Assembly: GCA_947462335.1 (NCBI GenBank)
Contig: OX381705.1
Coordinates: 39,549,770 to 39,613,769 of the forward strand
Reading direction: 5' to 3'
Origin: Harmothoe impar
Taxonomy: Eukaryota > Annelida > Polychaeta > Phyllodocida > Polynoidae
DNA length: 64,000 nt
A program made the position numbers and the translations under genes. Below, in pieces: positions 14,957 to 50,764 of this stretch; within the stretch, counting starts at the first letter, position 1, and each line of letters opens with the position of its first letter. Under the pieces are notes generated by a model that saw nothing but the letters and a program-made list of their open reading frames with translations, had not been told where the DNA came from and made no database searches.

Positions 14957-15026
14957 GGCGGAGAAAAATTGTATTCTGATAGAAACTACAAGATACCAAT
15001 ACTCCTCACTGCATAGTGTACCTGAC

Positions 15027-15689
15027 ATGCACCGCATTATAGATGGTGTAGATTTGGGAGTTGGAACTCCAACCCCTGACGAGCCCCATGCTCGCAGTGA
15101 ACCTGCAAACAGGAGAAAAACAAAGAACCCCGGTGTGCAAGACGAGTCAATACACATACAGGAGACAAAAGCTGGAATTATCTATCAGGGTAAGAAGGCA
15201 CACTTCTCTAATTGGTATCACTGTCAGATTAAGTTCGTGTATGAAGGCACAGAGAGAGTCTACTCGAGTGTAGAGCAGGGATATTTTCATATCAGACTCA
15301 GTATCCTGGGAAAACTGGATGTGGCAGCCGAGATTCTCAAAATGGCCGATCCCCGAAAAATCAAGGAGCTTGGGGATAAATTAGAAAACAGGGTGCCAAC
15401 TGATCATCGATTCTGGGGTCTTGAAAGGAATCTCATGTTGGATTTGATGACAGCCAAATATGGTCAGAATGACGCAGAAAGGGATCTGTTGATCAAATCA
15501 GGGTCAATTCCATTGACAGAAGGCACAGGAAGTCGTAAATGGGGATCTGGGTGGCCTTGGGATTCCAGGAATAAAAATGAAAAGTACAACAATCCGGCCC
15601 TAGCAATGCCAGGAAAAAATCTCCATGGGAAACTTCTGGATGAGGTCAGAGGCCATTATAGGCTTATAGCACTGGCGGAACATAAATGA
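15027..15689 (+). CDS. NADAR-domain protein (3' part of a LINE ORF1)
   Basis: The frame is open from 14895, but the first part of it is antisense Gypsy sequence. LINE sequence starts near 14957 and the first Met after that is at 15027. Residues about 48-215 form a NADAR (DUF1768, YbiA-like) domain: HFSNWY near residue 60, SSVEQGYF with the conserved Glu at 83, FWGLERNLMLDLM near 130-140, AKYGQN at 143-148, a Trp-rich W-x3-W-x-WD stretch at 172-179, and GKNLHGKLLDEVR at 196-208. NADAR proteins cleave N-glycosidic bonds of riboflavin-pathway intermediates or remove ADP-ribose from guanine. In a LINE the substrate is unknown. Upstream residues (R-Y-x-YSSL-x-SVPD) align with the end of the L1-like ORF1 domain of LINE-B, so the N-terminal coiled coil and RRM were lost by truncation. 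The frame is undamaged to its stop. Confidence 0.8.
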   Translation: MHRIIDGVDLGVGTPTPDEPHARSEPANRRKTKNPGVQDESIHIQETKAGIIYQGKKAHFSNWYHCQIKFVYEGTERVYSSVEQGYFHIRLSILGKLDVAAEILKMADPRKIKELGDKLENRVPTDHRFWGLERNLMLDLMTAKYGQNDAERDLLIKSGSIPLTEGTGSRKWGSGWPWDSRNKNEKYNNPALAMPGKNLHGKLLDEVRGHYRLIALAEHK

Positions 15690-15905
15690 ATGGAAACCAA
15701 AAGGACACAAGGGAAGGATTTGAAATTTGGTAGTAACCAATATTTGGCAATTTCGGTCTTAGGAAACTTATTTACTTAATTTGAAAAAAGAAATTAAATT
15801 ACATTAAACTATTATACCAACTTCCCGTTACATAAATAATTAATTAAATAATTAATGATTCATTTCTTTTTATTATTTTTATTTTATTTTACAGCTCTGA
15901 GAATC

Positions 15906-16703
15906 ATGTCAATCTTAGTGTCTGGGGACTCCAGGGCAGTGGACCTGGCTGAAATAGTGGCGAGTGCCTTGGGACATAGTGACTACTATGAAGTAAGTGA
16001 GTGTGCCAAGAGGTCAAGAGATATCGGTAAGATACAGCATTTTACACTGCTTGAAATGCAAAATCGTCATTATGATGTGGTGATTTTCTTGGCTGGAACA
16101 TGTGACATCACTAGGAGGAAGTACATCAATGGAAGGCGTGTGATTTACTACCCACATCCTAATGAGGCAACTTGTAGAGCTGTGGTGTCTGTTCGCTTAA
16201 GTGAAATGATCAGGAAGTGTCATGACCTATTTCCAGAAACAAAATTCATCCTATGCACATTATATGGTATGGACCTAAAGGTGTTCAACCACTCTGCTGT
16301 CATAGACCCAAAACAGCCCATGTTGAACAGATCCATAAAGCTTCTGAAAGGAGACATTAAGTATATAAATAGGCTGTATGATGTGCCCACCGTCAACCTA
16401 CATACCATCTTCCATCGCAACCGGTATAACAAAAACAGAGCCGGTAGAAAAACTAGTGCTCCCAGTAGGTTCGTGTGTCAGTATGACAAAAAGCTGAGAG
16501 ATGGCTGCCACCCAAAGTCTGATTATCAGAAAATGGTGGCTACAAGGATTGCCAACGTGATTGAAAAACTACTACCCATCCCACTTGCTGTAGAATTTGA
16601 CCCAGAGAATGACAATCTGTGGGACGTTGAGATAGAAGACGATGATGAAGACCCAGAATGGGATGTAGTCACAGATCGACTGCGTCAGATTTATCTAGGA
16701 TAA
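15906..16703 (+). CDS. SGNH/GDSL-hydrolase-like protein of LINE-A
   Basis: I choose the ATG at 15906 because the sequence before it is a T-rich tract ending in TTTACAG and the paralogue also starts MS-x-x-V. The in-frame ATG at 15855 would add a hydrophobic leader encoded by that tract. Motifs fit the SGNH fold: SGDSRAVDL near the N terminus (nucleophile Ser at residue 9), VVIFLAGTCDI (block III), and DGCHP near residue 205 (block V Asp-His). The tail is strongly acidic. SGNH esterase-like domains are known in ORF1 proteins of CR1-type LINEs, where lipid or membrane association has been proposed. The ORF lies 216 bp after the NADAR stop in the same orientation, as in LINE-B. It is intact with its catalytic-type residues. 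The substrate is unknown. Confidence 0.75.
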   Translation: MSILVSGDSRAVDLAEIVASALGHSDYYEVSECAKRSRDIGKIQHFTLLEMQNRHYDVVIFLAGTCDITRRKYINGRRVIYYPHPNEATCRAVVSVRLSEMIRKCHDLFPETKFILCTLYGMDLKVFNHSAVIDPKQPMLNRSIKLLKGDIKYINRLYDVPTVNLHTIFHRNRYNKNRAGRKTSAPSRFVCQYDKKLRDGCHPKSDYQKMVATRIANVIEKLLPIPLAVEFDPENDNLWDVEIEDDDEDPEWDVVTDRLRQIYLG

Positions 16704-17457
16704 TCAATAGCGGGTGTGACAGGTTAAAATAAATTAATTTGATAGTCCTCCATCACTCTAATAACAAATCCAATAATTTATACTCATATTTATAATCATA
16801 ATATCCACTTCACGTTTTTGTTTAAATTAGGAGTTATGTAATATGGCTTTAATTTTAGATTAACTTGTATGTCTCTAATCGATGTCTTCACCTCACAGAT
16901 GCAACTGCAAAAACTGAAAAAGAAATTGTAATTCTCATTGAAATGCTTCTACTCTTTTCTCCCTCGAACCAGTTAATCATTTTAATTCCCTAGCTCATAT
17001 CACATTAAGAAAATATTGGAAGTAGGGTCACGCCTCTTAGAAGTTATAATGATTTCCAGGATGGTACTAAGAAACGAATCTTCTTTTAGAAATTAAATTG
17101 GTTTCCTAGGTGTGATCTTTTCCTTCCTTTATAATTCGAAAATTTTCCTTCGCTTTAATAATAAATCCGGATGAGTCTGTATCCGTCTTGCTAATTCTCC
17201 TGGATTTTGTTGCATTATTCTGGGTTATTACAACAAGAAGTTATAATGACTTCTTACATCTGTATCTGTAACTGCAACTGCAACTAAACAAAATTATGAG
17301 TCAGAAGCGATATAGTGTGCTGACGATCTATCCTTATACCGCCAGTATGCTGTGCATTAAATACATGTATGACCATATCTAGGTGAGAAGTTATAACGAC
17401 TTTTCATCAACAAAGCCAAGTCATCATATGTAATGTCCATGAAAGAAGTTATAATGA

Positions 17458-17606
17458 GGAAAAATATTTATAGTAATATTTTGGATCCTGTAAGATGTAA
17501 TGTCTAGGATAAGGAAATGTTTTATAAACAAAAGGGTTTCACATATGTGGCCCTGATGGGTAGTCGGCTACTAACTCTGATATTTGGATGTTTTTTGTGA
17601 GAATTG
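17458..17606 (+). repeat. Direct repeat, first copy (second at 17813-17961)
   Basis: About 150 bp, from AATATTTATAGTAATATTTT to GTGAGAATTG, are repeated about 355 bp downstream with only a few differences (GGATCC versus GAATCC, AAATG versus AAAGG, one T in a T run). This is a local tandem duplication with a 355-bp period inside the LINE gap. Confidence 0.85.
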
Positions 17607-17812
17607 TAATGTCCAAGAAAGAAGTTATAATGATTTTTTTCTGGAGCAATTATTGTTACAAATATACAATTACGCAGCCGGATGATCATTTATGTCTAAC
17701 ACAAAATCGCATTATTGAGTTCAGAATTGAACCCGTTTATTGTCAGGGATCTACATGTGAACATTCCATGTCCATAGTGGCATATAGTGATAAGAGACTA
17801 CAAAAAAAAATA

Positions 17813-17961
17813 AAAAAAATATTTATAGTAATATTTTGAATCCTGTAAGATGTAATGTCTAGGATAAGGAAAGGTTTTATAAACAAAAGGGTTTCACATA
17901 TGTGGCCCTGATGGGTAGTCGGCTACTAACTCTGATATTTGGATGTTTTTGTGAGAATTGT
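17813..17961 (+). repeat. Direct repeat, second copy
   Basis: Near-identical to 17458-17606; see that entry. The duplicated block includes the phrase TTTCACATATGTGGCCCTGA and is followed by a long T-rich run. Confidence 0.85.
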
Positions 17962-18936
17962 GTTTTTTTGTTGTTTTTTTGAATTAACATTGTTTATTTG
18001 GCACATTCTGTGTGGTGTTTAGAACGTTTGCTGCTGTTGTTGGAATAACTTCATAGCGCATAATGCGTCATTAATTATCATCTAGTATCTATCTATTTAT
18101 CTATCTATTATTGGTAATTTGTATAGGGTTTGAATTGGTATTGTGCAACTTTAATTATGACGCACTAAGGTTGTTGATGGTTTAAAGATAAATGGATTGG
18201 TGACTACTACTGTTGTTGCTGTTGAACATTGAACATTATGACATTATGACATCTAAAGTACATTCTTCTTTATCCAGAGAAAAATATAAAATAAAAACTA
18301 TTAAATCTACCTACTGTCGATTTCAATCATTGTTTATTATTATTAATGTTTATATGCTCATAAAACATACATGTAAGCCTGTCTCGTCAATATCCCATTA
18401 TCACATTATCGCATTTTTTATCTCATCTACATTATCAACTTTTATCTGTGTTGTCTACCTGTTATCTATCTGTTATCGATTATTATATCTATTACATTTT
18501 TTGTTTTAACTGGTTGATGAACTGTCATTGTCTCCCATATGCTCCCAAAGGTATCCTCACCCCCATATCTCCTCAACTCCCCTTAAGGTCTGTAATATGT
18601 TATCATTGGATAATTTATGGATATGCCTTTTGGCACTAAAATTATGGTACATCCTAGACCTGTATGCTCTATTTGTTTTAATTAAGATTGAACCGGATTA
18701 AAGGTTCTGAGATTATTTATCCCGAAGTAAAGTCCCTTATTACATTTTGATCGAGAAGAACACATAGCTAAAATCCCCCGCTTAAACCTCTTGTAGAACA
18801 TTAAGTTGTGAGATCTACAAGGGGCGGTCTGGGCTCTAGTTTGGTAAACTAGAGTTTTTTTTTCTTCTTCTTCTTTCTTCTACTTCTGTCTCCATTGTTG
18901 TTTTTCTTTCTATTGTTATTGTAACTTTGACCGGGC

Positions 18937-21877
18937 ATGACGACCACAAGAGTCAACGACTTTCTGAGGACCGGAGGGCTGAAATTAGTACATATGAACA
19001 CACGGAGCATGTTTAAAAAACGACAAGATATTTTTGATCAACTAGATGGTACGGACATTGTGACGATGAGTGAGACGTGGCTACATCCTGAATATGACGA
19101 TGACCTGATATACTGGGATGGAATGAAACTTTTTAGGCAAGACAGAGCTAACAAAAAGGGAGGAGGAATAGTTGTTTACGTAAGAAATGATCTGGATTGT
19201 GAGGTTGTTATTAGAAGGGAACTAAATGTGAATAACAAAGATCTGGAATGTTTTGTATTGGACATAACATTGAAGAATGATACGAAAATGCAAATTGTTA
19301 CTGTATATAGACAACCAAGGGGCAACTAAGATAATTTTTTCCTGTATTTGAAAAAGCTAATGAAACAGTCTCAACAGGCTGGAGTAGAGCAGTGGATATT
19401 GGGTGATATTAATATAAACACCTTAAAAGAAGGTATACCATCCAGTGTGACTCTTAGTGACTTGTGTAAATTCAGAGGTTATCATAAACTAATCCACCAG
19501 TGTACACGTCCATTTGGAAATACTGTGTCTTGTCTAGATAATATACTTACATCCTATAATGGGGATATGTCATCTGGAGTGCTCAACTTTTTGGTCAGTG
19601 ATCATTTGCCTGTATATTGTGTCAAAACTAAGCTGAAAATTGAATATTTGAAAAAATCATTGCGAATTCGCAATTATAAATACTTTGATGTTGAGCTATT
19701 CAAAGATTGGCTTAGTGAGGCAGATTGGGATGAATATTACACTTACCAAGATCCTGATGTAGCATGGATGTTCATATTAAACCACATTGTTGAGTATCTA
19801 GATGTGAATTGCCCTTGGGAAACAATTGAGGTGCTAGATAAGAGAAATAAGTGGATGACCGGAGACATTCTTGGACTTATAAGAGAGAGAGAAGATGCTG
19901 TGGATGCCTTTTTAAGGACTAGAAAGGAAAGGTTCTTGATACAAGCCAAGAAGTTGCGTTGTAGAATCAATAAAGCCATTACATACGCTAAAGCTGAATA
20001 TATAAAGAACTCATTAGAGGAAACCAAAGATGATCCTAAAAAGTTCTGGCGTATAATCAATAATGTGCTGAAACCTGAAGTTGCTGTTGAACCGCCTCTG
20101 TTAATTGGAGAGGATGGTTTTATGAAGACAAATCTGGACTCTGTACAATATCTTAATGGGTTCTTTTCTGGAATTGGAAAAAGGCTCTCTGACAACATGA
20201 CCGCAAAAGGTCACCATGAAAGAATTCTATTTACAGAACCTGTAGATAGTGTCTATCCTAAAATCAGGGTAGATAAGGGTCTGGTTGAAATCCTTTTTGG
20301 TGAGATCAATATTAATAAAACCTCAGGGATAGATGGTTTGCGATGTGATATTCTAAAGTGTGCCTTGAAATTCTTAATAAATCAACTGACATGGTTGTAT
20401 CAATTAAGCTTTGACCAGGGTATTTTCCCAACCACTTGGAAGAAGGCTCGTGTGAGCCCGATTCCTAAAGCTGGGAACCCTAGGTTAATCACCAACTGGA
20501 GACCCATATCCCTTTTGCCTGTGCCATCAAAGATAGCTGAGAAGATCATGCATATTCATTTGAGCGATGTTCTGGATAAAAAAGATTTTCTCTCTGAACA
20601 TCAATATGGTTACAGACAGGGGAGAGGGACTGGGGATGCCATCTTTATGTTTTTGAATAATCTATATGAAAATAGAGACAGGGGACATCTGACTGCTGCC
20701 TGCTATTTAGACCTGAAAAAAGCGTTTGATAGTGTACATCATGGGTATTTGATTGAAATTCTTGGCACTTTAGGTCTGCATGACTGTGTTCTGAACTGGT
20801 TAATGAGTTACCTAACTGGTAGAGAGCAGTTCACAAGAATTGGTGATTATCAGTCAACCTCGGCTAATGTAAAATTTGGTGTTCCACAAGGATCTGTTTT
20901 GGGACCCCTGTTGTTTATCTTGTATATAAATGATGTTAGTCAAGTGCTAGGCAACCGAGGTCATTATATCTATGCTGATGACTTGGTTGTCTTTCATTCA
21001 GCCAATAGGATAGATCTAGTAAAGGATAGGATGGATTCAACCTTAAGACTGCTATCAAAATGGTTTATTGACAAAAGGTTAACTGTCAATGTTGATAAGA
21101 GCAAGATAACCTGGTATGGCTCAACCCAAAAACTGCCCTTGGAAGATCAAAGGTATCAATTTCTTTCTTGATGACTTTCCTTTGGAAAATGTTAGTTGCT
21201 ATAAATATCTAGGCCTTAAAATTGATAGTTCCTTGAGTCTAGTGCCAGCAATGAGAGAATTAACTAGTAAAGTCAATCACAAGCTCTTTAGGTTTGGGAA
21301 ATTTAGGGATGTTCAAACAGAACAAGCTGCGGTCATGGTATATAAAGCGACAATAATGAGTCAGTTTGACTATGGGAGTTTCTGTTTTGAAGGTATAAAT
21401 GGCGGGCTTTTAAAGAAATTAGACCGGATGCAAAAAAGGGGTCTAAAGGTTTGTTATAAAGGAAGGCAACTTAAGGAAGAGGAAATGTACAAACTGTCAT
21501 GTATTCCAACTCTGAAAAGACGGAGACAGGAGTTATTACTAACTTATATGTATAAACTCTCTCATAATGATAAAATGCTGGATTTAAGGCCTAGGAGAGA
21601 TGGGTTACGTTCAGACAAGAAAATACGATTTAATGTGCCTAGAGCAAGGAATGCTGGGTATACAAAATCACCCTTATACAGAGGTTCTGAATTGTGGGAT
21701 AAACTGGGGGACTGGTACCAAACGAGTAAGGACAAACTGACATTTAAACAGCTCATAAAAACTCTTGTGGATCTAGACAAACAAAACAAGAATCCATCTG
21801 ACTTGGATATGGTAGAGGTTGGGCCTCCAGGAGGGGGAAGGGTGCTCCCTTTGGATGAGTGGCCCATGCTGAACTAG
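18937..21877 (+). pseudogene. Endonuclease-reverse transcriptase of LINE-A (one stop, one frameshift)
   Basis: N-terminal APE-type endonuclease: HMNTRS, MSETWL, GDININ and VSDHLPVY blocks supply the Asn, Glu, Asp-Asn and Asp-His residues. The reverse transcriptase follows: KTSGIDGL, NWRPISLL, LKKAFDSVHH, GVPQGSVLGPLLF and YADD (near 20970), then a CR1/L2-like C-terminal region with C-x(n) and LDRMQKRG motifs. The frame is continuous except for an in-frame TAA at 19327-19329 within the endonuclease and a frameshift near 21140-21165, after which the protein continues to 21877. The family is non-LTR retrotransposon, Jockey/CR1 superfamily; the exact clade was not determined. Two lesions suggest a moderately young dead copy. 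Confidence 0.85.
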
Positions 21878-22455
21878 GACACTGTTATAGTGACAGGGTC
21901 AGGTTCAGTGGGGCACACTGGTCCAAAAAACATGTAATAGCATGTAATAATTGTAATAATTATGATGTCATAATCGCCAGGGTGTGCAGTTATCCAAATC
22001 CAATTCTTGTCTCTAATCTGATCTGGTCTTTCTACTTTTTGCTCGTCCATGGTCAAATTAATCTTGTCTTATATGGATATTCTGCCCATGATATCATGTG
22101 TGATGCTTAATGCATTTTGAGACTCTACATGCTCCCACTAGGTGTGCTCTCAATCGTGTACAGACACAACCCTCCTCCCCTCTTCAAGTAAATCAATGTA
22201 TAAATACTCGGTCAAGTTAGTCAATATTGTTATATTGTTTGTATATAATGTCTGCTAATTTATTTATTATTTTGTACATATCTACTGTATTGAACCATCT
22301 TTACATCATCTATATATACTCATCTTTGTCTCATCCTGAAATGTGGAAACAATTGTCGCATTGTAAAAACGGATAAGGAATCACCATTTATTGTCATAAC
22401 ATATACCACGAATTGTAATTTTTGTGATTTGGCAATAAAAACCCTTCAAAACCTA
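21878..22455 (+). other. 3' untranslated region of LINE-A
   Basis: Non-coding and AT-rich, ending with GCAATAAAAACCC (polyadenylation-like) and a short A-rich tail at about 22445-22455. Immediately after it the minus-strand Gypsy ORF3 coding signal resumes. Confidence 0.6.
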
Positions 22456-22575
22456 AAAAAAACAAACTAGTTTTGACTTCGAAGTGACTGTGGAGGCAGA
22501 GACCTTAGGCCCAACCTTCACACTGTGACTTGTCACTTCCGAAGTGGTCCTCTTCACTACCTGAGGGGTGCTTGT
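22456..22575 (-). pseudogene. Old Gypsy ORF3, C-terminal remnant (proximal piece)
   Basis: Minus-strand translation gives a Thr/Ser/Val/Lys-rich stretch (KRTTSEVTSHSVKVGPKV) of the same character as the piece on the other side of LINE-A (14291-14956). Both contain TTCGAAGTG words. The left edge abuts the LINE tail. At the right edge, near 22575, coding changes abruptly to the Mag-like protease, the second inferred inversion breakpoint. Confidence 0.45.
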
Positions 22576-23700
22576 GCGCCGACAACATGGAACTATAAAC
22601 GCTGCCTATCACCCTTGTGTGTGCATTCTAAATCACAGACTCCCAATGTGTTTAGGAACTGCCCTCCATATCCATGAAGCGTGGTCTTACTCAACATGAG
22701 CACCTGCTGGACATGCAGTTTGTCAAACATAGATTTGGGTAGCACGTTGACCTGTGCCCCGGTGTCTACCTTAAACTTGATAGTCACGCCATGGCATTGG
22801 ATATGGACAAAAACCTGGTATGTGGTGCACGCCGCTGAGTTGACCACATCTATGAAGAAATGCCTGCCTGCATAGCTAGCACTGTCATCTGGGCCTGTGA
22901 GCAGCAGACCGCCGCAAAATGGTTGTACCTCTTGCAGTTACTCGCTCTAGAATCTCTTCCCTCTGGCAGGGCAACTCTCCATGCTGGGATGAGAGTCCTG
23001 GTTGCAGTTAGGGCACAATTCAGCTGTGCTTCTCTGCGGAGCCTGTTTACCACCACTAACATTGCCATGGCCGCCATACTTCTGCCTGTTGGGAACCGCT
23101 TTCTTCTTGGATATTCCCACGGCCTGGACTCCTGCAGCCTCTGAGCCACCCATGCACTTCAGGTGCCGTTGAGTGCTCTCCAGAGCACGAGCAATGTTCA
23201 GAGCTGCAAACAAGTCAACGTCATCTCTGCTATCCAGGTACCGTATCTTTAATTTGTCTCATCGCTGTTGGTGCCGAACACCAGTCGGTCACGTAGCATT
23301 TCATCCACAAATGCTGCTATGAAAGCACAATCCTTGACAAGGAGTCTTAATCTTATGAGGAAACTGTCAACTGACTCTGTCCGCCCCTGCACCATAGTGT
23401 AGAACTTCATGCAGTCTGGGGGTCAGTCTTGTCCTCCCCTGCTACCTCAGCGACAGCGGCTTGTCCATCTGCTGCAGGCACAGCTGCAACAGCAGGGGCA
23501 AAGTGAAAAGTGGAGAATATCTCCCTGCCCCGCTCCCGGGACCATATCAACGCGCTGGTTTTGCTCAGTCTTACAAAGAAGGCCAGAGAAAAATAGATCT
23601 GCATGATCTTCAAATTTCTTCCATGCCTCCCTCAGTACTGGGGAGTCCCAGTCCATTCTTGGCAGGTCTGCTTGTGATACAACTATTGGGTCCATGATTA
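22576..23700 (-). pseudogene. Mag/K02A2.6-like Gypsy gag and protease fragment
   Basis: The minus strand starts MDPIVVSQADLPRMDWDSP at 23695, the typical start of a Mag-type gag, and continues in broken frames. A zinc knuckle follows near 22960-23050 (CPNCNQDSHPSMESCPARG, then a second C-x3-C pattern). The protease has VDTGAQVNVLP near 22770 and LHGYGGQ. The translation reaches the FHVV block typical of the end of this protease and then stops matching at about 22575. In Mag elements this block is followed by LGL and the reverse transcriptase, which are found instead on the plus strand from 2785. Several stops and shifts make it non-functional. Confidence 0.7.
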
Positions 23701-29675: not shown

Positions 29676-29945
29676 GACCACTCCTGACTGAGTTTCTGAC
29701 TCTTTTTAAGCAGTAGCCTGAGTAGGTGATCACACACAATACACTATGACAAATCACCATTATGTTGTACTATAGACTTGTTTGCTACGAGGATTGCAGC
29801 TTAACCTCTCTAATGTAGTGACCACAACGTTTTAATAGCACAATGAATGATATTTCATCCCGTGTTTCATGCAGAGCATTACGGGTATGATTAGTTACTT
29901 ATTGGACGTCTGTGTTGCCATCCCTGAATATAATATATATCCCTG

Positions 29946-30429
29946 TGTGGTGGTTCGTAGTTAACTCTAGGTTAAAGAACAACGATCACGGCAGTTTCCA
30001 GGTGCGAGAATATATCTGTCTTTATTCACAAGAATAACAACTCTAGTTCCTTTACTAGGGAACGATCAGTGTAGAATTAATACACACAGGTAAATCAGGT
30101 TTCTCTATAAATAGAGGAAACGGTCAGTATACAACTCTTAGCATACAACTCTGTCCGCACGGTTGGACATGTGAAGTCTCTCGTCAGTCGGGCCTGCACT
30201 GACTGCCGTTCCAGGTAAACACACGGGTCTTATATAACACCGGCTCTTAGATCACGTGGCCAGGTGGGTGGGTCGGCCGCCCACCTGAGAGCGGCACACG
30301 GTTACCTGAAGAGGACCTGCGCCCTCTCCCGGGAACTGTGTGCACTAGCTCCAGGTGGAGAAGCCGAGTAAACAGACGTTACCCGGAAATACCGTGTATG
30401 AGATTAATATGTAATATCATGCCCCTACA
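29946..30429 (-). repeat. 3' LTR of the complete Gypsy
   Basis: Minus strand reads TGTAGGGG...CCACCACA. It contains a TATA box (complement of TTATATA at 30231-30237) and an AATAAA polyadenylation signal (complement of TTTATT at 30021-30026) placed in the right order for U3-R-U5. Confidence 0.92.
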
Positions 30430-30440
30430 CTACCCCCCCT
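30430..30440 (-). promoter_or_regulatory. Polypurine tract
   Basis: On the minus strand AGGGGGGGTAG lies directly against the 3' LTR, the plus-strand DNA priming site of reverse transcription. Confidence 0.8.
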
Positions 30441-34741: not shown

Positions 34742-34982
34742 AGATTCCTGGTCACCGAGGTCAGGTCAACCACATTCCCTCCGCTAGCGGAGTCGCCCTC
34801 CTCAAGAGGGTCCACCTGTTGGTGGTCTGTCTCGGAAGACATGTTTGTCACACTCAAGAAAAGTGTTATTGATGGATTATAGGGGGTCCACCTCCCCACT
34901 GCAAGAATGGTCGTGTCCGAGCCCTCACGTCTGCTCTGGACCTCCTCTCAACCCCAACTGGCGATTCCCGCCGAACCGCGTG

Positions 34983-35013: not shown

Positions 35014-35313
35014 AACCCCGCGCGTCCCGTGACCCAGTTCCTTGGAACCAGGTCACCGCGCGTTCAATTGTAAACAGGTACCCTCATTCCACGTGTTAAT
35101 CCTTACGCTCTGTCAACTCGTCGAGAGTATCAATGAAATATATATGAATGGCATAATAAAGCACATTCACCGGATTATCCGTCCATCACCCATGGGATCC
35201 TTGACAGGGGGACTATCACGATCATTCCGACCGTACTTACTTCCACACATAACTGATTACAACATTTAAATATTTAACAAGATTACAGGACACCACACTC
35301 GTTGTGTACCGGC

Positions 35314-38300: not shown

Positions 38301-39527
38301 TAAAAGCGGGGTTATCCCCGGTTTTAATTTCATGCAATACCTTATTGGTTCTCCCCAGGGGTTCCCCTGGGGCCGCAAAAGCTTGCCTGCATCTCTTCAG
38401 CATAGCCTTTAGGGCTTCCTGATCATTCTCATCCGTTATGGACGATCCTGTTAACAACTTAGTTAACTCTTCATGCAATTCCTCTTCCCCTCCTTCTTCT
38501 AACCTCAGGTCTTGGTGGCTACCGGTGACTGCCTCCGCAAGTATCACTTTCCCAACTTCAGTGCCTTTCTCAAGATATACTGTGGAGTTTCCGGGGTTGG
38601 AAATGGGTGTCACTGTCCATCTGGAATTCCCTACTAGGGTATCCGCAGATTCCAATCCCTTCCGGGATAATACAGCCATATCCGGCTCGATTACCGCTAA
38701 TCCTCTCTGGATTAGCCTCCCTGAACTGACTAACACGTCACAGGTCATTCCCGGGGGAATCTTCACAGTCTGTGCCACACTAGCGACACTACTTATCACT
38801 CTCAACTTACAGAGTATGGTCATATCATACGGGTATTCAATTTTCAACTTCCCACTTTTCGGATTCAAAGTCGCACCGAAAAGCGCCGCAAAATCCAAAC
38901 CAAGAATACCATCATCTTCAATCTCAGCTATGGTCGGGGCCCAAACAAATTCTTTCCCGGCCACAGAGATTATCAGAAAAGTCCGTCCAAATGTCTTCAT
39001 TCTGGTACCATCGGCCGTACAGGCGTTTACCCTCATTGTGAGGTTCTCACACATATTCGGCAATAAGCTGATGAATCTCTTAGAGACCATGGAGTGGCTA
39101 GCTCCAGTATCCATAAGAAATTCCCCAGTCTTTCCTTGTACAGAACAGGAAACGTACCACCTCTTCCCATCAGTTACTGAGGGATTCCTAGTAAACCGGT
39201 GAAGGTCACTATCAGTGCCCAGGTCGAATCCACATCCTTTCAGGTGTTCCAGACAAGGATGACCCGGGGGAAGCCTGGTTCCTCCAACCTTAACCAACTC
39301 TTTGGCTATTGACTCCTCTAAACTGGCACTAGGTTTCCCATACGCGCACCCCTGGGCGCCTGTTGTACCAGTCTCCCCAGCCTCATGGTTTCCGGGATGT
39401 ACGGTCCCATCTCCCTTCTTGCTGGACGCATTCACTGCTAATGAATCTTCACCGCCAACGTCGGTGATAATCTGACATATTTCCTCAGGGGTTACCGTCC
39501 TGCCATCCTCGGTAACCCCCTCTAATT
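35314..39527 (-). CDS. pol: Gypsy pol polyprotein (PR-RT-RNase H-IN)
   Basis: The open frame begins just inside the end of gag and is reached by -1 frameshifting; the first GTG/ATG-like start (39435) is not needed. Numbering from 39435: protease DTGAS at 109; reverse transcriptase with FCIDYRKLN near 429, LDLQSGYWQ near 466 and YLDD at 529-532; RNase H from 678 with DTDAS and a TDHSSL block; integrase zinc region H926-H931-C961-C964; and catalytic D993, D1053 and E1089. A GPF block near 1170 is followed by a long basic tail with an AT-hook-like RKRGRPRKE. There is no chromodomain. All catalytic residues are present, so the enzyme set looks functional. It acts in virus-like particles and, for integrase, in the nucleus. 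Confidence 0.93.
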
Positions 39528-39531
39528 TCCC
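39488..39531 (-). promoter_or_regulatory. -1 ribosomal frameshift signal between gag and pol
   Basis: On the minus strand the heptamer GGGAAAT (39531-39525) fits X-XXY-YYZ in the gag frame. It is followed at once by the gag stop TAG. After a 5-base spacer (TAGAG) comes a perfect 10-bp stem GGGGTTACCG/CGGTAACCCC (39519-39510 with 39497-39488) closing a 12-base loop. Pol is in the -1 frame and opens a few codons upstream of the heptamer. Confidence 0.88.
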
Positions 39532-42050: not shown

Positions 42051-42126
42051 TAAAGGACTTCCTGTTCAGTATAACCCGAACATATTCCCGAACAATTACC
42101 TTGTTCTGCTACCTTTACTGCTACTG

Positions 42127-42138
42127 GTCACGGCACCA
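42127..42138 (-). promoter_or_regulatory. Primer-binding site, tRNA-His type
   Basis: Minus strand reads TGGTGCCGTGAC one base after the 5' LTR. This is complementary to CCA plus the 3' acceptor end (GTCACGGCA) of animal tRNA-His. Confidence 0.8.
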
Positions 42139-42139
42139 G

Positions 42140-42623
42140 TGTGGTGGTTCGTAGTTAACTCTAGGTTAAAGAACAACAATCACGGCAGTTTCCAGGTGCG
42201 AGAATATATCTGTCTTTATTCACAAGAATAACAACTCTAGTTCCTTTACTAGGGAACGATCAGTGTAGAATTAATACACACAGGTAAATCAGGTTTCTCT
42301 ATAAATAGAGGAAACGGTCAGTATACAACTCTTAGCATACAACTCTGTCCGCACGGTTGGACATGTGAAGTCTCTCGTCAGTCGGGCCTGCACTGACTGC
42401 CGTTCCAGGTAAACACACGGGTCTTATATAACACCGGCTCTTAGATCACGTGGCCAGGTGGGTGGGTCGGCCGCCCACCTGAGAGCGGCACACGGTTACC
42501 TGAAGAGGACCTGCGCCCTCTCCCGGGAACTGTGTGCACTAGCTCCAGGTGGAGAAGCCGAGTAAACAGACGTTACCCGGAAATACCGTGTATGAGATTA
42601 ATATGTAATATCATGCCCCTACA
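42140..42623 (-). repeat. 5' LTR of the complete Gypsy
   Basis: 484 bp, identical to the 3' LTR except at 42178. The TATA box complement is at 42425-42431 and the polyadenylation signal complement at 42215-42220. Confidence 0.92.
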
Positions 42624-43400: not shown

Positions 43401-43629
43401 CATTCATTTGACACAGGAACCGGAAGTAAACAAAAGGTATCATGACCTAGTTCCTCCTGTTGTTGTCCTACCTTTGAAGGAGATATGGAGCGTCGCGAGA
43501 GCTAGTCGCATTCACTTCGGCGCATCACTAAATTTGTAATAACTTTGTTTTATTTTGCTTTGTCGCAATACACTAAGCGACAAAGTTGTAAAACAAGTTA
43601 CTGGGCTCATTTTGATATAACTTTCAAAT

Positions 43630-45096
43630 ATGAGTTCTGGAAAGAAAATGAAGAAAGTAGGAAAAACCGAAAAAACCGTTACGCCGCAGCTTATTCAAGA
43701 AGCGGAGTCGGAGAGTATGGAGCGCGGTAGGCCTAGATCTAGGCCACAAGAAGCTCGGGGATCTTCAAAGAGGAGCAACTCTTTAGAGCAGAAGAAGATG
43801 ACAACCAATGCTGAGAGTGATTCAGCTGCAGGTAAGGGGATAAATAATACACATGAAGTAAATGGTACTGGTGGTATTATGTTTGGATCTATTAATGAAA
43901 AGGATATTGAGCAGTTGAGTAGTAAGGAGCTGTCGAGTGTGATTATAAATCAGCTAAATCAGCTCAATACTCTAGCCCAATCTCAAGTCACAAAAGATAG
44001 TCTCTCTGATCTGCTTGAAAATCTGAAAAAAGATCTATCATCAAAGATTATTCAATTGACGGGGGAAAATGATCAACTCAAGAAAGGCCAACTGAACTTG
44101 AGCGTGACAAGCAACATGCAACAGAGGAAAATTGATAACCTTGAATTAAAGCTCCAATCTCTTGAGGCTGATCGCAAGAAAAAGAACCTAGTCATTGAAG
44201 GCTTAAAGGAAGTTGAGGGGTCTGATCTAAGGGCTCAAATTGATAGATTGTTTCAGGCTATTGGAGTGTCTTTCACAACTGAAAATGTGGAAGCATGTTA
44301 CCGAATGGGTATCAAAAGGGAGCATCAGAAGAAGGCTCGTCCAGTGATGGTAAAATTGAATTCTGTTCGCCAGAAACAACAGATTTATTCAAAAATCTCA
44401 AACCTAAAGGGAAAGGTAGAGTGGAAACACACATCAATTGGGGACGATCTGTCAGTGGAAGAACTAAATGAGAAGAGAAATCTACTTGCCTTGGCCTCTT
44501 ATTGCAAGTCACAAGGTAAGGAGGCCAAAGTAGCAAACGGATCCATTACGGTTGATCACAGGAAATTTGGGTACAATCAATTGGCTTCTATGCCTGATGA
44601 AATAAACATCAAAAAAATAAAAACTGTGACAACTAAAGAGGGAACATTATTTGATAGCGAATTCAGTTACTTGTCGCCTGATTATGTTTCTGAAATCGTG
44701 CACAATGAAGAGAAGTACATCTCTGCGACAAGTTTTGTATTGTCGCAACAAGCTGAATTTAATGGAGATCAAGTTCAAGCGCTGGAGATTAGGTTGGCCA
44801 AGACTGTCGCAGAGGCTAAATCTATCGCAACTGCGATTACCAAGAACAATAAATGGGACTCTAAACAGAAGATCAAAGTCATGCAACAGGCAAATCAGCT
44901 TAAATTTGACCAGCACCAAGACCTAAAAGATCAATTGAAAAAAGTACAGGGCTCCATCTACTCTTGCAATTTTGACAGATTCTGGAGCTGTGGTATGGCG
45001 CTTTCGCAAAGAAAGTATGTCAATAAAACATCAATTACCGGGAAAAATGCTCTAGGAAGTGTTCTAGAAAGCATCCGTGATGCATTAATGAACTAA
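43630..45096 (+). CDS. LINE ORF1: coiled coil, L1-type RRM/CTD and C-terminal NADAR domain
   Basis: 488 codons. Basic, Ser-rich N terminus (1-80); coiled coil about 95-180; an L1-ORF1-like (Transposase_22) region starting KKKNLVIEGLKE (184-195) with RMG-x-K and the KARPVMVKL strand (RRM) and a C-terminal domain to about 325; then a NADAR-like domain about 338-487. NADAR marks: FSYLSPDYV at 345, KFDQHQDLK at 425, FDRFWSCGM at 448 and GKNALGSVLESIRDAL at 471. The position of the conserved Glu (SVEQ in the LINE-A copy) reads SATS at 365, so that residue is lost. ORF1 proteins coat LINE RNA as nucleic-acid chaperones. A fused NADAR fold is unusual, and its activity here is doubtful. Confidence 0.8.
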   Translation: MSSGKKMKKVGKTEKTVTPQLIQEAESESMERGRPRSRPQEARGSSKRSNSLEQKKMTTNAESDSAAGKGINNTHEVNGTGGIMFGSINEKDIEQLSSKELSSVIINQLNQLNTLAQSQVTKDSLSDLLENLKKDLSSKIIQLTGENDQLKKGQLNLSVTSNMQQRKIDNLELKLQSLEADRKKKNLVIEGLKEVEGSDLRAQIDRLFQAIGVSFTTENVEACYRMGIKREHQKKARPVMVKLNSVRQKQQIYSKISNLKGKVEWKHTSIGDDLSVEELNEKRNLLALASYCKSQGKEAKVANGSITVDHRKFGYNQLASMPDEINIKKIKTVTTKEGTLFDSEFSYLSPDYVSEIVHNEEKYISATSFVLSQQAEFNGDQVQALEIRLAKTVAEAKSIATAITKNNKWDSKQKIKVMQQANQLKFDQHQDLKDQLKKVQGSIYSCNFDRFWSCGMALSQRKYVNKTSITGKNALGSVLESIRDALMN

Positions 45097-45189
45097 TTGG
45101 ACCTAGCATATGCAATATCAATGACTATTTTTCATGATGTATCACTCGGTACGATGAGTATTATTATTATAATTAGCCATGCGGCGAGA

Positions 45190-45360
45190 GGGCGTGGCAT
45201 TTTGAAACATTCGTAACGTAAACAAAGGCGCGCGTCCCTAGTTACGTCCCACGCAACCATGCACGCCTAGAAACCAGTGACGTCACAGCGCGCCCTGTCT
45301 CCTTAGCGACAAGGACTTCCGGGAAGAGGCGCGTATGTCAACATAAGGCGACAAATCGTG
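45190..45360 (+). promoter_or_regulatory. GC-rich promoter-like block before the SGNH ORF of LINE-B
   Basis: It contains the perfect CRE palindrome TGACGTCA (45278-45285), an ETS-type ACTTCCGGGA (near 45315), several CGCG words and GACGT/CACG boxes in otherwise AT-rich DNA. It lies 60-230 bp before the SGNH ATG. An internal promoter is an inference from these motifs. Confidence 0.35.
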
Positions 45361-45418
45361 GATTTCAACTTAGAATTGTTGTTTAATCGCTTGTAATAAG
45401 CTTAAAACAGCATCAACT

Positions 45419-46057
45419 ATGTCTCTGAAAGTGAAAGTATTGACTGATGAACGGATGGGCACGCAAGGGGAGATGGATTTCTTTCTTGGCAAGCTTTTTC
45501 CGGACGGTGAAGTGAGTTATGAAGTAATAATTTTTCCACACGAAGGACTTGAGTACATTTCATCGGTCGTTGATTGTCTGATTGAGCAAGAACCGGACAC
45601 AATGTATTATATAATAGCTGGAATATACGACATACTACGTATGGGCCCGACAGGACAATTACATTTCCAACATGTATGCTTTGATGAGCTTCATGATTCT
45701 GTAGAAATGAAGATTGAAGACAGTGTAGAATATCTTAGGCAACGTCACCCAGGAACTATTATTCATTTGTCAACACTGACCGGGGTTAATGTGTCTGAAA
45801 CCTGTACCTGGCACGGACTAGGTGATGATCAAAAGATTATGGACGTAGGAATCTACACCCTTAATGATTGTATTCGATTGAAAAATCATAAGTATGGACA
45901 CCCTACCCCTAACTTGGCCTCTGTGGTCCATTACTACAATGGGGACAAATACGTCAGTAAATACAACCTACATCTCAACGATGGGCTACCAGGAACACTG
46001 CCTACTATTAAAAAGTGGGCCTCAATTCTAGCACAGCACATCAGACGTTACCTATAA
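45419..46057 (+). CDS. SGNH-hydrolase-like protein of LINE-B, catalytic residues lost
   Basis: 212 codons, intact, 322 bp after ORF1. It aligns in order with the LINE-A SGNH protein: the start MSLKVKVLTDERMG versus MSILVSGDSRAVDL; YYIIAGIYDIL versus VVIFLAGTCDI; and NDGLPGTLPTIKKW versus RDGCHPKSDYQKM. The nucleophile Ser of GDS is replaced (TDE) and the His of the D-x-x-H block is replaced by Pro/Gly. The protein therefore looks like a non-catalytic member of the fold, perhaps retained for binding. It is shorter than the LINE-A protein and lacks its acidic tail. Assignment rests on positional correspondence with LINE-A and on the fold-typical strand spacing. Confidence 0.65.
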   Translation: MSLKVKVLTDERMGTQGEMDFFLGKLFPDGEVSYEVIIFPHEGLEYISSVVDCLIEQEPDTMYYIIAGIYDILRMGPTGQLHFQHVCFDELHDSVEMKIEDSVEYLRQRHPGTIIHLSTLTGVNVSETCTWHGLGDDQKIMDVGIYTLNDCIRLKNHKYGHPTPNLASVVHYYNGDKYVSKYNLHLNDGLPGTLPTIKKWASILAQHIRRYL

Positions 46058-46854
46058 TAGGTAGGAAATATGACAGTAAATTGCTCAAAACATTAAATAA
46101 TATCCTTTCTCTGGTTCCAATATAATACATAAAGTTCTACACCAGTACTATATCATGTAGTATTAACCCCTTACTTACTGCATAAGCTGTATTCGTTTCC
46201 TCATAACTTAACAAAGACTTAATAACAACATGAAGAGCTTCCAGTACACGTAACCATAAACGTTGTTATGATGCTGATCTTATCAGGCTGATGGGTGCAG
46301 AGACAGGACGTGACGAGACGAGATGATACGTGAAGGGTCCTTTGAGAAGAGGCAGACGAAGACATTCCTTACCAGACGTGTGCAGGACAACAGTCAAGAA
46401 CTATGCAGCTTACAACATGTCAAGTCTGGCACCAAACTCCTGTTCATAATATTTTTAATTATTAATTATTAATTGATATTGCATGACTGGGATTAATCTA
46501 ATTACATAAAAATGTTCAAAATATATTCGAATTATATATTATATATGTAAATACATTCTTGTAAAATATCTTCTTTCCTTCTTTTAATGAAAATCAATGT
46601 AAATAATACTGTGAATAATTAACATTATTTATAGAAAATGTGGTAAAAGCCGATCCATATCCCTGACAGTTGACATACAGATTGGTATATGCTGAAAATC
46701 AGTATGTCAATGGTAGTTATTCTATGTCTAGTATCTAAGAATGTTCTTTGTTATTTGAGGTTTGCAGAAAAATATGTGTGCAACATGAGCTTGCTAGGTT
46801 GTAGAGATATATTTAATGGTGTATTGTATGCTAGGGTCATTCTTATAACTCAAA
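46058..46854 (+). other. Non-coding gap between SGNH-like ORF and EN-RT of LINE-B
   Basis: About 800 bp, AT-rich, with no ORF and no repeat resembling the GAAGTTATAA series of LINE-A. It corresponds in position to the 2.2-kb gap of LINE-A. Confidence 0.6.
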
Positions 46855-49740
46855 ATGATTGATACAATTGTACCTACAGTTGCTTCAGTTAATCAAGCTG
46901 AAGGTGAACATTTCATGCATTTGAATATTAGGAGTATCCGCCCAAGAGAAACTGTTGATGAGTTCAAATTGAGATTTACTGGTACTAATTTTAATTTTAT
47001 CTCAATATCAGAGAGTTGGTTGACTGACACAGACTGTGATTCTACATATTCACTAGGAGGTTATACATTGTATAGAAATGATAGAAAATGGAGGGACAAT
47101 TTTTTAAACCCTAATCCAAAAGTGGGAGGGGGTGTATGTGTTTACATAAATGACAAATATACAAGTACAATTGATGTAACACCCTGCTTGAACTTATCAA
47201 CTAGCTACCTTGAATCAAATTGTGTCCATTTTAAGGACATCAGTGGTATTTCCAATACAGTATGTACTATTTATAGACCGCCTCATGGAGATTTGGAAGA
47301 TTTCTTCACTAATATAGAATTGATAGTTTCAAACTTGTCAGCTAAGCAGAAAAAACGATTATATATTGTTGGTGATTTTAACATTGATTTATTGGACCCA
47401 ACTAAAAAGGATGAAATTACGCGTTTAATCAATATATTCATGCAGTATGGTTTATTAAACTATATTAAGAAACCTACAAGGGTTAAAGAAAAGGAAGCAT
47501 GTCTAGATTTGATTTTTACAAATAATTTTTTCCTTGATAGTGCTGATGTCATACCTTTTGATCTCAGCGATCATCACATTGTGTTTGGGAAAATTATCAG
47601 GGAATCTGTAGAAAACTCAAAGGTTAAATTTGTGGGGAGATCCATGAAAAATTTCTGTGCTGACACTTTGATCGAAACTTTCACAAACATTGATTGGGAA
47701 GATTTTTATTTAGACAAAAATCCAAATTTACTCTGGGAATTCTATGTTGAATCTTTGAGATTAATACTAGATGAAATGTGCCCTTTTAGGGAATTCAATG
47801 TAAAAACACCCAAAGAAGATTGGGTGTCTCACGCCTTGTTGGAAGAGATAGTGGAAAAGGACCGTTTCCTATCTAGGTCGTATAAAACAAAAAATGCTGT
47901 TGATAGGCAAATTGCTAATGATGCTAGAGTAAAGTTAAATGTGGATTGTCATACTGCCAGGGAGAAACATGTAAACCAAATTACTGAAGATTTCAAGAAT
48001 GACCCAATTCATTTTTGGAAGGAAATTGCAAAGTTATTACCAGCAAAAAAGGGTAAAAATAAAACAATTGAGCTCGTAGATCAGGAGGAAAATATTGTTC
48101 CAACTGAAAATACGGCCGGTTTCATTAATGATTACTTCAGTAATATTGGTTATAATTTGGCAAAAAATTTGGATTCCCCTTGGTCTTTTGACGGTGATAT
48201 TAATCAAACCACAAGTTTGGAAAATATTTTCATCACAGAAGATATGATTAAATACTACATCGATGAAATTGTTATCACTAAGTCTTCAGCAATAGAAGGT
48301 ATAAATGCTAAGATTTTGAAATTGGTTTTTCAAGTAACAAAGAAACAATTAGTTCATATATTCAACTGCTCTCTGGAGCAGGGTGAAGTACCATCTTCTT
48401 GGAAATGTGCTACAATAATCCCAATACCTAAAGGGGGTGATTCCAGTCAAGTGAATAATCTAAGACCCATATCACTACTTGCTCTACCGGGTAAAATAAT
48501 TGAAAAAGTAGTTCATGAGCAATTAATGGATTTTGTGGAAAAAAATAATTTATTAACAGACTTCCAAAATGGATACAGAAAGGGTCGTTCTACAATCACT
48601 TCTGTAGGGGTTATCACTGATGACATTTTAATTGGTAGGAATGTTGGAATGAATACAATAGCTACTTTTTTTGATCTTAAAAAAGCTTTCGACACTGTTA
48701 ATCACAAAATTTTATTACAGAAATTAGAATTAATGGGCATTAAGGGTAATTTACTAAACTGGATATCAAACTATTTAAAAGATAGAAAGCAATGCACAAG
48801 GGTAAATGGTACTTCGTCTGCTTACAATGATGTTGAATGTGGAGTTCCTCAAGGTTCAATACTTGGACCTCTCCTCTTCCTCATCTATATCAATGATGTG
48901 TATAAAATATGTAAGAATGTTAACATAAGTATATTTGCCGATGACACGGTACTCTACTGTAGTAGTCCATCTGAGGATCAATCTGTTAGAAATATGCAAA
49001 ATGGAGTTAATGAGTTTGTAAATTGGTGTAACAAAAATAAGTTGACTGTCAATGCAGAAAAAACAAAATTCATGGGTTTTGGAGCAGGGAAATGTTTCAA
49101 GGATGTGTCAATTAAAATTAATGACAAACCAATTAGTAGGGTTTACAGTTATAAGTACCTTGGCATAACCTTAGATCCAAAACTCAGTTACAATCTATTC
49201 TTGAAAAATCAAATGCGTACTATTGCATATAGAATTTATCAACTAAACAAAATTACAAGATTTCTAAGTAAAGAGAGTTTATTAAAAATTTACAAGGCAT
49301 ACATTCTACCTATATTTGATTATGGGGATATATTATTTATGTCTTCCTCAAGTGTACAATTGACAAAATTGCAAAGAATACAAAATAGGGCGATTAAAGT
49401 ATGTTTAAAAGTTAATAGTAGAACATCAACAGAATGGATTCATTGCAAGTCACAAGTCAATTACCTTTCAGATAGAAGACTAAGTCATGCATATGTTGAA
49501 GGGTACAAAAGGTCTCGTAACACAAAATACATAAGGAAAACAAATGTTAATCTCAGATGTGCAAATGCTCCATTATTGAAAAACAAATTGCCACACACGG
49601 AATCATATAAAAGGAGTTTGGAATATACCATTTCTGTACTTTGGAATGATCTACATCATTCCAAAAGAAACACCCAGGACTTAGGATCCTTCAAGTTTCT
49701 TTTGAAGAAGGAGCTGAAGGGTCTTATTCCAATAACTTAG
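46855..49740 (+). CDS. LINE endonuclease-reverse transcriptase (intact)
   Basis: 961 codons without interruption. The APE-type endonuclease has MHLNIRSI, ISESWL, VGDFNIDLL and DLSDHHIVF, carrying the Asn, Glu, Asp/Asn and Asp-His catalytic positions. The reverse transcriptase has NNLRPISLL, FDLKKAFDTVNHKIL, GVPQGSILGPLLFLIYIND and FADD (near 48942). The C-terminal part has LKIYKAYILPIFDYGD and LQRIQNRAIK, as in CR1/L2-like LINEs. It performs nicking and target-primed reverse transcription. An open frame in all three LINE-B ORFs suggests a recent, possibly active copy. Confidence 0.92.
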   Translation: MIDTIVPTVASVNQAEGEHFMHLNIRSIRPRETVDEFKLRFTGTNFNFISISESWLTDTDCDSTYSLGGYTLYRNDRKWRDNFLNPNPKVGGGVCVYINDKYTSTIDVTPCLNLSTSYLESNCVHFKDISGISNTVCTIYRPPHGDLEDFFTNIELIVSNLSAKQKKRLYIVGDFNIDLLDPTKKDEITRLINIFMQYGLLNYIKKPTRVKEKEACLDLIFTNNFFLDSADVIPFDLSDHHIVFGKIIRESVENSKVKFVGRSMKNFCADTLIETFTNIDWEDFYLDKNPNLLWEFYVESLRLILDEMCPFREFNVKTPKEDWVSHALLEEIVEKDRFLSRSYKTKNAVDRQIANDARVKLNVDCHTAREKHVNQITEDFKNDPIHFWKEIAKLLPAKKGKNKTIELVDQEENIVPTENTAGFINDYFSNIGYNLAKNLDSPWSFDGDINQTTSLENIFITEDMIKYYIDEIVITKSSAIEGINAKILKLVFQVTKKQLVHIFNCSLEQGEVPSSWKCATIIPIPKGGDSSQVNNLRPISLLALPGKIIEKVVHEQLMDFVEKNNLLTDFQNGYRKGRSTITSVGVITDDILIGRNVGMNTIATFFDLKKAFDTVNHKILLQKLELMGIKGNLLNWISNYLKDRKQCTRVNGTSSAYNDVECGVPQGSILGPLLFLIYINDVYKICKNVNISIFADDTVLYCSSPSEDQSVRNMQNGVNEFVNWCNKNKLTVNAEKTKFMGFGAGKCFKDVSIKINDKPISRVYSYKYLGITLDPKLSYNLFLKNQMRTIAYRIYQLNKITRFLSKESLLKIYKAYILPIFDYGDILFMSSSSVQLTKLQRIQNRAIKVCLKVNSRTSTEWIHCKSQVNYLSDRRLSHAYVEGYKRSRNTKYIRKTNVNLRCANAPLLKNKLPHTESYKRSLEYTISVLWNDLHHSKRNTQDLGSFKFLLKKELKGLIPIT

Positions 49741-50764
49741 ATAGTTATCTGCTTACTGTCAACTTTATTTGGTATTGTTGGTTTTTAAAATCTGGTATCG
49801 TTCATTTTATAATGCATGAGATGTTCAACAACCATTATCATATTTTCTGTGAATAATCAGGAATTGTTTAAAGTAATATATTTCATTGTGATAATGTATT
49901 TTCTTAATCTACTTATAGCTCACTAAACAAATCACTATAGTATTAATTAATTTAGTAGACCTCATTGTATTTGTCCATGTAGTGTCTTGTATACAGTTAA
50001 GCTCATAGCATATACTGATGTACTGAATCTTTTAGGTTTTTCTATATGAATTTTTTGAGGTAGTGTCTCAATTTTGTGTATAGATAATCTGATTGCATTT
50101 ATGTAACTAATGTAGTATGTCTTAATTATATTCACAAATTTTGATTTGTGTTTATAATTTATTAATAACACTTAATAATATTACTATAATATAGTCTACA
50201 CTTACTCTTTTCAAGAGAATAGATTGTAGAATTCATAAATGTAAATTTCTAATTTACATATAATGTATCTGATATTATATCTGGTACTTGTGTTAATTAG
50301 TATGGTATAAATTGTATAGATTGATAATCTCCCTGTAATTATATGGTGCTAATTTATTCATAATCTTAATGGTTTTATACATATTGGTTAACTGTATATG
50401 AAGTCATAGCCTTCATACGAAAATTGTTCTCAAAAATATTATAAAATAATATATTTAATATGTTATACTCTGATAAATTATTGTATAATGACAATTGACA
50501 TTTAAAGGTGGCGGACGAAAGCAGACTTTAGGGTCTTGATGCAGCCTTTTTGCTTAAAATTCAAAAATTGTAAAGTAATGACGTGTAAAGGGTTTAATTA
50601 CAAAGGAATATCCTGGTATAAGGAGTATGTACATACTTGTAAAATTAGTGCATGTTCCTTTTATAACTGAATGTGAAAAGAATTTAATTGTACAATTATA
50701 ATTAGTTGTGATCTTGAGCAAATAAATTTTTAAAATTGAAAATTGAAATTGAAATTGAAATTGA
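49741..50764 (+). other. 3' untranslated region of LINE-B
   Basis: About 1 kb of AT-rich sequence ending in AAATAAATTTTTAAAATTG and repeated TTGAAA units, the probable recognition tail of this LINE. Confidence 0.65.

Follow-up and report, generated by a model that had tools for sequence, protein, structure and literature searches.

NADAR domains in LINE retrotransposons of Harmothoe impar: evidence for inheritance with the reverse transcriptase and for stepwise loss of catalytic residues in one branch

Two LINEs in a 64,000-nucleotide stretch of the Harmothoe impar genome (contig OX381705.1, positions 39,549,770 to 39,613,769; hereafter the window) carry a NADAR domain upstream of the endonuclease and reverse transcriptase (EN-RT). 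Our comparison of elements picked for NADAR supports the view that the domain has been inherited together with EN-RT since before these two elements, LINE-A and LINE-B, separated. Toward LINE-B its catalytic residues were lost stepwise, and low dN/dS values show that the domain lacking them is still under purifying selection in that branch.

That a LINE ORF1 can contain NADAR has already been mentioned briefly in the literature, contrary to the initial annotation, which knew of no established LINE with this domain. According to the accessible part of that paper, several Crassostrea gigas LINEs of the Tx1 type have the domain in ORF1 and Gypsy elements of Ectocarpus have it at the N-terminus of Pol, RNA processing being put forward as a guess (PMC12477816). 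The oyster elements resemble ours in being LINEs with NADAR in ORF1; those of Ectocarpus are likewise retroelements with NADAR but differ as LTR elements with the domain in Pol. An SGNH-like ORF, loss of catalytic residues and tree agreement go without mention in the accessible text on the oyster elements, which are assigned there to Tx1 (PMC12477816). In the one literature library searched, we found no report of an SGNH-like partner, of NADAR catalytic-residue loss under selection or of RT/NADAR tree agreement.

Architecture of the two elements

In both elements the order on the same strand is NADAR, a separate SGNH-like ORF, a gap without long ORF and EN-RT (Table 1), and to this extent the initial annotation was right, coordinates included. 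Its NADAR assignments also held, with profile scores of 60.4 bits for LINE-A and 76.2 bits for LINE-B against a curated PF08719 cut-off of 35.1; the LINE-A domain had no match in a PDB sequence search. Its description of NADAR as ending ORF1 applies to LINE-B only, since the roughly 55 residues between the first ATG of LINE-A (15027) and the NADAR match are too few for a coiled coil and an RRM. LINE-A may be 5'-truncated or differently built.

Table 1. Features of LINE-A and LINE-B, in window coordinates
Feature	Coordinates	Strand	Evidence or remark
LINE-A, approximate span	14960..22470	+	From just 5' of NADAR ORF to A-rich end at about 22430-22466, by eye; ends inferred, from one copy
LINE-A NADAR ORF, first ATG to stop	15027..15689	+	Pfam NADAR (PF08719) on ORF 14841-15686, E 3.4e-16; catalytic positions E, R, E from alignment
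LINE-A SGNH-like ORF	15906..16703	+	Lipase_GDSL_2 (Pfam) E 3e-5, below curated cut-off; motifs
LINE-A gap without long ORF	16704..18930	+	Contains direct repeat
LINE-A EN-RT, broken	18937..21877	+	RVT_1 (Pfam) E 1.2e-33 on piece 19330-21168; translations
LINE-B, probably full-length	43478..50765	+	5' boundary where copies on other chromosomes cease to match; 3' tail (AAATTG)n at 50733-50765
LINE-B 5'UTR hairpin	43531..43606	+	Fold z -4.56 (segment 43520-43610); alignment of five sequences
LINE-B ORF1: disordered N-terminus, coiled coil, RRM, CTD, NADAR	43630..45096	+	AlphaFold2 model, mean pLDDT 77.3; fold matches
RRM of LINE-B ORF1	44185..44451	+	
NADAR domain of LINE-B ORF1; catalytic positions T, Q, S	44623..45093	+	Pfam NADAR on residues 357-489 (ORF 43621-45093), E 4.7e-21
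LINE-B SGNH-like ORF	45419..46057	+	No Pfam match; homologous to LINE-A-type SGNH ORFs by hhalign; motifs
LINE-B gap without long ORF	46058..46854	+	Conserved block at about 46592-46732, upstream of EN-RT
LINE-B EN-RT, intact frame	46855..49740	+	RVT_1 5.5e-43, Exo_endo_phos_2 2.4e-7

LINE-B has EN and RT in one ORF and dispersed copies, as expected of a non-LTR retrotransposon, and all its ORFs are open. In LINE-A, EN-RT is present but broken at two places, by an in-frame stop (19327-19329) and by a shift of frame around 21110-21171; this copy cannot make an intact EN-RT. According to its structure model, LINE-B ORF1 is an L1-type ORF1p (coiled coil, RRM, CTD) to which a NADAR domain is joined, the latter matching the YbiA fold (PDB 2b3w, 8bau); a PDB sequence search with the same protein returned weak coiled-coil matches alone. 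To our knowledge, human LINE-1 ORF1p has no NADAR domain. Its coiled coil, RRM and CTD (PDB 2ykp, 2yko, 2w7a) are as in LINE-B ORF1. Among the PDB chains listed, which included no CR1 or Jockey RT, the LINE-B RT was matched best by human L1 (E 1.8e-17), ahead of R2 (2.7e-10). The RT motif GVPQGS[IV]LGPLLF was read in the EN-RTs and presumably resembles that of CR1/Jockey-type elements.

The CR1/L2-type elements with an esterase ORF1p, such as ZfL2-1, share with ours an SGNH-type domain upstream of EN-RT, but they hold coiled coil and esterase in one ORF, and the accessible text describes no RRM in any esterase-bearing ORF1p of RepBase (PMC3905857). In our elements the SGNH-like protein has an ORF of its own, and the neighbouring ORF1 of LINE-B contains an RRM, which places LINE-B outside that type.

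Querying the genome with LINE-B ORF1 produced 88 matches, drawn from the 87 scored of 3415 candidates, many of these with open frames near 500 aa. Four copies read over a longer stretch (L029-L032) repeat the three-ORF order, with identities to LINE-B of 58-63% in ORF1, 55-57% in the middle ORF and 68-75% in EN-RT pieces; among them L029 has EN-RT in one open frame, and the other three have it split. The DNA of L029/L030 and of L031/L032 is 98-99% identical on different chromosomes, pointing to recent transposition in the LINE-B family. The 5'UTR hairpin recurs at positions 225-320 of L029 (z -5.37) and of L031 (z -5.62); its upper stem, CTTTGTCG/CGACAAAG, is identical in five aligned sequences and the lower stem is paired differently in L029. 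Upstream of EN-RT, the conserved block of LINE-B holds the inverted repeat TTGACATAC/GTATGTCAA, the fold of which is not significant (z -1.2 to -1.9), and this block is possibly a signal for EN-RT translation.

Regarding LINE-A, a 136-nt direct repeat lies within its gap (17460-17595 and 17815-17950, spacing 355). Both flanks (about 14640-14960 and 22470-22600) read, by eye, as a Ser/Thr/Val-rich protein on the minus strand; possibly, LINE-A landed in a coding region in antisense orientation.

Linkage and shared inheritance of NADAR and EN-RT

Searching the 1.51-Gb host assembly with the NADAR model returned 3484 first-look candidates, of which the best 150 were scored; all 150 passed the cut-off, giving at least 150 NADAR loci. 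Linkage was read in 20 loci (L009-L028) spread over ranks 5 to 149 of these, a sample in which intact domains are favoured, since it was drawn from the top-scoring 150 of the 3484 candidates. A same-strand EN-RT lies downstream of NADAR in 20/20, a count that stands without a random-locus baseline; in L011, L012, L016, L017, L026 and L027 this EN-RT is truncated or spread over more than one frame. Chance pairing of NADAR and EN-RT is disfavoured by this linkage. NADAR can also lie inside its reading frame, as in L025, where it occupies residues 93-235 of 403. An SGNH-like ORF of at least 120 aa stands between NADAR and EN-RT in 8/20 (L012, L013, L016, L017, L018, L022, L026, L028), and none of that length was found within the 3.5 kb examined in the other 12. 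The four best NADAR matches differ from this pattern: L001 has RT fragments upstream, and L002-L004 are three NADAR ORFs within 27 kb (G000 C21:30057793-30084570) with no EN-RT in the 3.4 kb examined for each, which are probably host genes. Some animal NADAR genes in surveys may be LINE ORF1s.

Trees of RT and of NADAR were built for 25 elements that have both domains and were picked for NADAR, L017 being left out because its RT is cut short. The two trees agree on the families and on a 12/13 bipartition, with LINE-B, L029-L032, L025, L028 and L009-L013 on one side and LINE-A, L018, L027, L023, L024, L026, L014-L016 and L019-L022 on the other. The branch carrying this bipartition is supported at 88/90 in the RT tree and weakly, at 68/80, in the NADAR tree; several long branches meet there, and both trees are rooted at midpoint only. 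For these reasons we put weight on the whole pattern of pairwise distances, in which RT and NADAR correlate with r 0.95 over the 25 elements and 0.76 over 12 representatives (p 0.0001 in both permutation tests, the lower limit for 9999 shuffles). Linkage and tree agreement together bear out, for the sampled elements, the initial annotation's view of NADAR as a conserved feature of a LINE lineage and not a chance insertion, as well as its expectation of NADAR linked to EN-RT across the genome; the SGNH-like ORF, which it took as a fixed part of the arrangement, proves common without being universal.

Active sites of the NADAR domain and of the SGNH-like protein

In the NADARs studied so far, as far as the accessible texts go, the catalytic centre comprises a Glu, the Lys that follows it by seven residues and a residue on the last strand. 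At this last position the YbiA family has Glu, NADARs linked to DarT1 have Asp and those of phages have His (PMC11543638, PMC11125620). In a profile alignment to 8bau, columns of the elements fall on its catalytic Glu and Lys (E43 and K50 in P. nicotianae). The triplet reads E, K, E in 20/20 rank-sampled loci and E, R, E in LINE-A. LINE-B has T, Q, S, that is, neither the Glu and Lys nor a last-strand acid. Hence YbiA (PDB 2b3w) and the P. nicotianae NADAR (8bau) share their fold with these domains and their catalytic residues with most sampled elements, but they are free-standing enzymes, and LINE-B lacks those residues. The suggestion in the initial annotation that these LINEs carry an ADP-ribose eraser is compatible with LINE-A-like elements, where the residues are kept or conservatively changed, and is unlikely for LINE-B.

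Among 115 relatives from ENA/JGI records, the first Glu is kept in 112 and the second position is Glu or His in 15; the latter residues, together with the Arg at this position in LINE-A, count against a catalytic reading. All 54 genome domains, a set that counts overlapping loci (L005 and L009 are a single site), keep the FSN-type serine as well as both the G and the N in a GxN motif; the first Glu is absent in 18, which is not a genome frequency since L029-L056 were chosen as LINE-B relatives.

The order of loss was read on an ORF1 tree of 30 rows, the main splits of which are well supported. The triplet is E, K, E in L049-L052, E, K, N in L046 and L047, E, Q, N in L045, and A, Q, S in L040-L044 and L048. 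Further along it becomes T, Q, S in LINE-B, L029, L030 and L033-L035, T, Q, H in L036 and L037, and T, K, Y in L031, L032, L038 and L039. This series (EKE, EKN/EQN, AQS, T(Q/K)(S/H/Y)) supports a stepwise loss toward LINE-B that began with the last-strand Glu. On these residues, LINE-B NADAR is probably an inactive pseudoenzyme. Mutants of the E. coli C7 NADAR bear on this point: the single change E88A did little in vitro though it failed in cells, K95R hydrolysed in vitro without rescue in cells, and the YbiA-type Glu E173 was dispensable, D171 being needed (PMC11543638, accessible part). Because of the mild effect of E88A and the dispensable E173, inactivity of LINE-B is given as likely only; the His on the last strand of phage NADARs and the Lys kept in L031, L032, L038 and L039 also count against a loss of activity.

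Low dN/dS values in the LINE-B branch show that NADAR is still maintained there without its catalytic residues. Fifteen pairs were compared; in five of them, which include all those involving LINE-B, NADAR dS is saturated and yields no ratio. The ratio is 0.05-0.07 for L033/L034, L033/L035, L034/L035 and L029/L033, at a dS of 1.5-2.7 that is near saturation, and 0.08 for L036/L037 (dS 0.25). Nonsynonymous changes number 0 against 4, 7 and 8 synonymous ones in the recent pairs L029/L030, L031/L032 and L032/L039, and 0 against 1 and 2 in L031/L039 and L031/L038. Over 12 ORF1s, invariant columns are more frequent in RRM-CTD (97/150) than in NADAR (65/156), and amount to 41/185 in the coiled-coil part. 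The alternative of LINE-B as a dead relic is disfavoured by its open frames and by purifying selection.

The middle ORFs of the two types are kin according to hhalign, which aligned eight LINE-B-type with four LINE-A-type sequences over 199 columns (99.0%, E 2.7e-18); those of L012, L013, L017, L018 and L026, absent from that comparison, were joined to the family by multiple alignment only (15-21% identity to LINE-B). Their putative SGNH fold takes its evidence from the weak LINE-A Pfam match and the motifs. For LINE-B, a PDB profile search gave no significant match (GDSL-like 4iyj at E 0.7) and the structure model (mean pLDDT 43.5) is too weak for use; for LINE-A, a PDB sequence search gave a weak unrelated match alone. 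LINE-A keeps the Ser (GDS) and the Asp and His (DGCHP), with Cys in block III (GTCD) where Asn is expected. In LINE-B the catalytic Ser is replaced by Glu (TDER) and the His by Pro (DGLPG), unlike in an SGNH hydrolase. The full set of Ser, Asp and His is present in 5/19 SGNH-like sequences (LINE-A, L016, L022, L028, L053), at least one being absent in the other 14. L012 (3842-5406) and L013 (4000-5383) have a tandem pair of SGNH-like ORFs, both without catalytic Ser.

Possible roles of the domain

The explanation we propose, on which our own judgement is evenly divided, sees NADAR as an inherited part of ORF1p that would be an eraser acting on the element's own RNA or cDNA where the site is intact, and would serve binding or assembly in the LINE-B branch. 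As extrapolated from L1 ORF1p, the coiled coil and RRM/CTD would coat the element RNA and so bring NADAR onto the retrotransposition particle. In most sampled elements, NADAR is probably enzymatic; it would hydrolyse ADP-ribose from guanine bases of that RNA or cDNA and so reverse ADP-ribosylation imposed by the host in response. Toward LINE-B, the domain would have been kept through the stepwise loss of its residues for binding or assembly, and the separate SGNH-like ORF would provide a second accessory protein, often without catalytic residues. We hold the eraser role for intact-site elements because, in the accessible texts, guanosine-ADPr is a substrate of NADARs in both DNA and RNA (PMC11543638, PMC11833690), NADARs alone among the hydrolases tested removed ADP-ribose from guanosine in RNA (PMC11833690), and animal RNA viruses carry NADARs for which a role against host ADP-ribosylation is proposed (PMC9503650). 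NADARs also cleave riboflavin intermediates, so that the domain does not fix the substrate, and the weak deepest NADAR fork with its long branches counts against our explanation. If the intact-site domains are active, nucleic-acid ADP-ribosylation could be a eukaryotic host response to retrotransposons, to which LINEs carry the antidote, as in bacterial DarT1-NADAR pairs. The LINE-B ladder would then provide matched domains with and without catalytic residues within one lineage, from which catalysis could be separated from binding by experiment.

The retention of the domain under selection without catalytic residues in the LINE-B branch, the serine and GxN residues kept in all genome domains and the nematode trans-splicing protein SNA-3, the first of whose three NADARs lacks the conserved residues (PMC9303266, accessible part), would also suit a NADAR whose main task within ORF1p, throughout these elements, is to bind nucleic acid or ADP-ribose, its residues serving the ligand and hydrolysis being incidental. 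We find this plausible but doubtful, as binding alone need not require the E, K, E of all rank-sampled loci. A more far-reaching proposition treats NADAR and the SGNH-like protein as the two halves of one counter-defence module in an ancient LINE lineage. NADAR on the particle would remove ADP-ribose that the host has placed on guanines of element RNA or cDNA, and toward LINE-B the two active sites would have been given up jointly, leaving both proteins as binding scaffolds. Both sites are altered in 8/8 LINE-B-branch elements read for both (LINE-B, L029-L032, and L047, L045 and L043 with their SGNH-like ORFs L054, L055 and L056), and a nearer relative, L050 (NADAR E, K, E) with L053 downstream, is intact in both. 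The joint change is confined to one branch and may thus reflect one event or few, and the SGNH site is altered with NADAR intact in L012, L013, L017, L018 and L026, so that the link between the sites is not strict. We consider such a pairing unlikely; if true, it would offer a natural loss-of-function series for retrotransposon-encoded ADP-ribose erasers.

The N-glycosidase activity of bacterial and plant NADARs (PMC11543638) and the soluble ADPr targets proposed for viral ones (PMC9503650), both from the accessible texts, would allow NADAR to act on small molecules (riboflavin intermediates or soluble ADP-ribose signals) and to alter host NAD/ADPr signalling instead of the element's own nucleic acid. 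This is distinctly improbable, since LINE-B NADAR is fused to an RNA-binding-type ORF1p and is not free, and a benefit acting in trans would be shared with rival elements. Highly improbable, finally, is passenger DNA, with unrelated LINEs each having picked up a host NADAR gene on their own. NADAR ORFs without nearby EN-RT do exist (L002-L004), and other retroelements share accessory ORFs across classes (PMC5408684, accessible part), but the agreement of the RT and NADAR trees in families and bipartition, among elements picked for NADAR and with L017 left out, disfavours repeated capture, as does the purifying selection on NADAR in the LINE-B branch.

Outside LINEs, a 1154-aa JGI protein (P0121) on a 5.9-kb contig combines NADAR with PF03919, PF01331 and PF03291, which we take to be mRNA-capping families; the contig is perhaps from a large DNA virus. 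A search of viral contigs gave no relatives of the query proteins P0003, P0005 and P0001. The window holds two further elements: a Ty3-type LTR element at 29942-42435, with terminal repeats of at least 300 nt that are 99% identical and long ORFs on the minus strand, and a DIRS/Ngaro-like element at 56041-60771, where RT, RNase H and tyrosine-recombinase (Phage_integrase) ORFs lie between 191-nt direct repeats.
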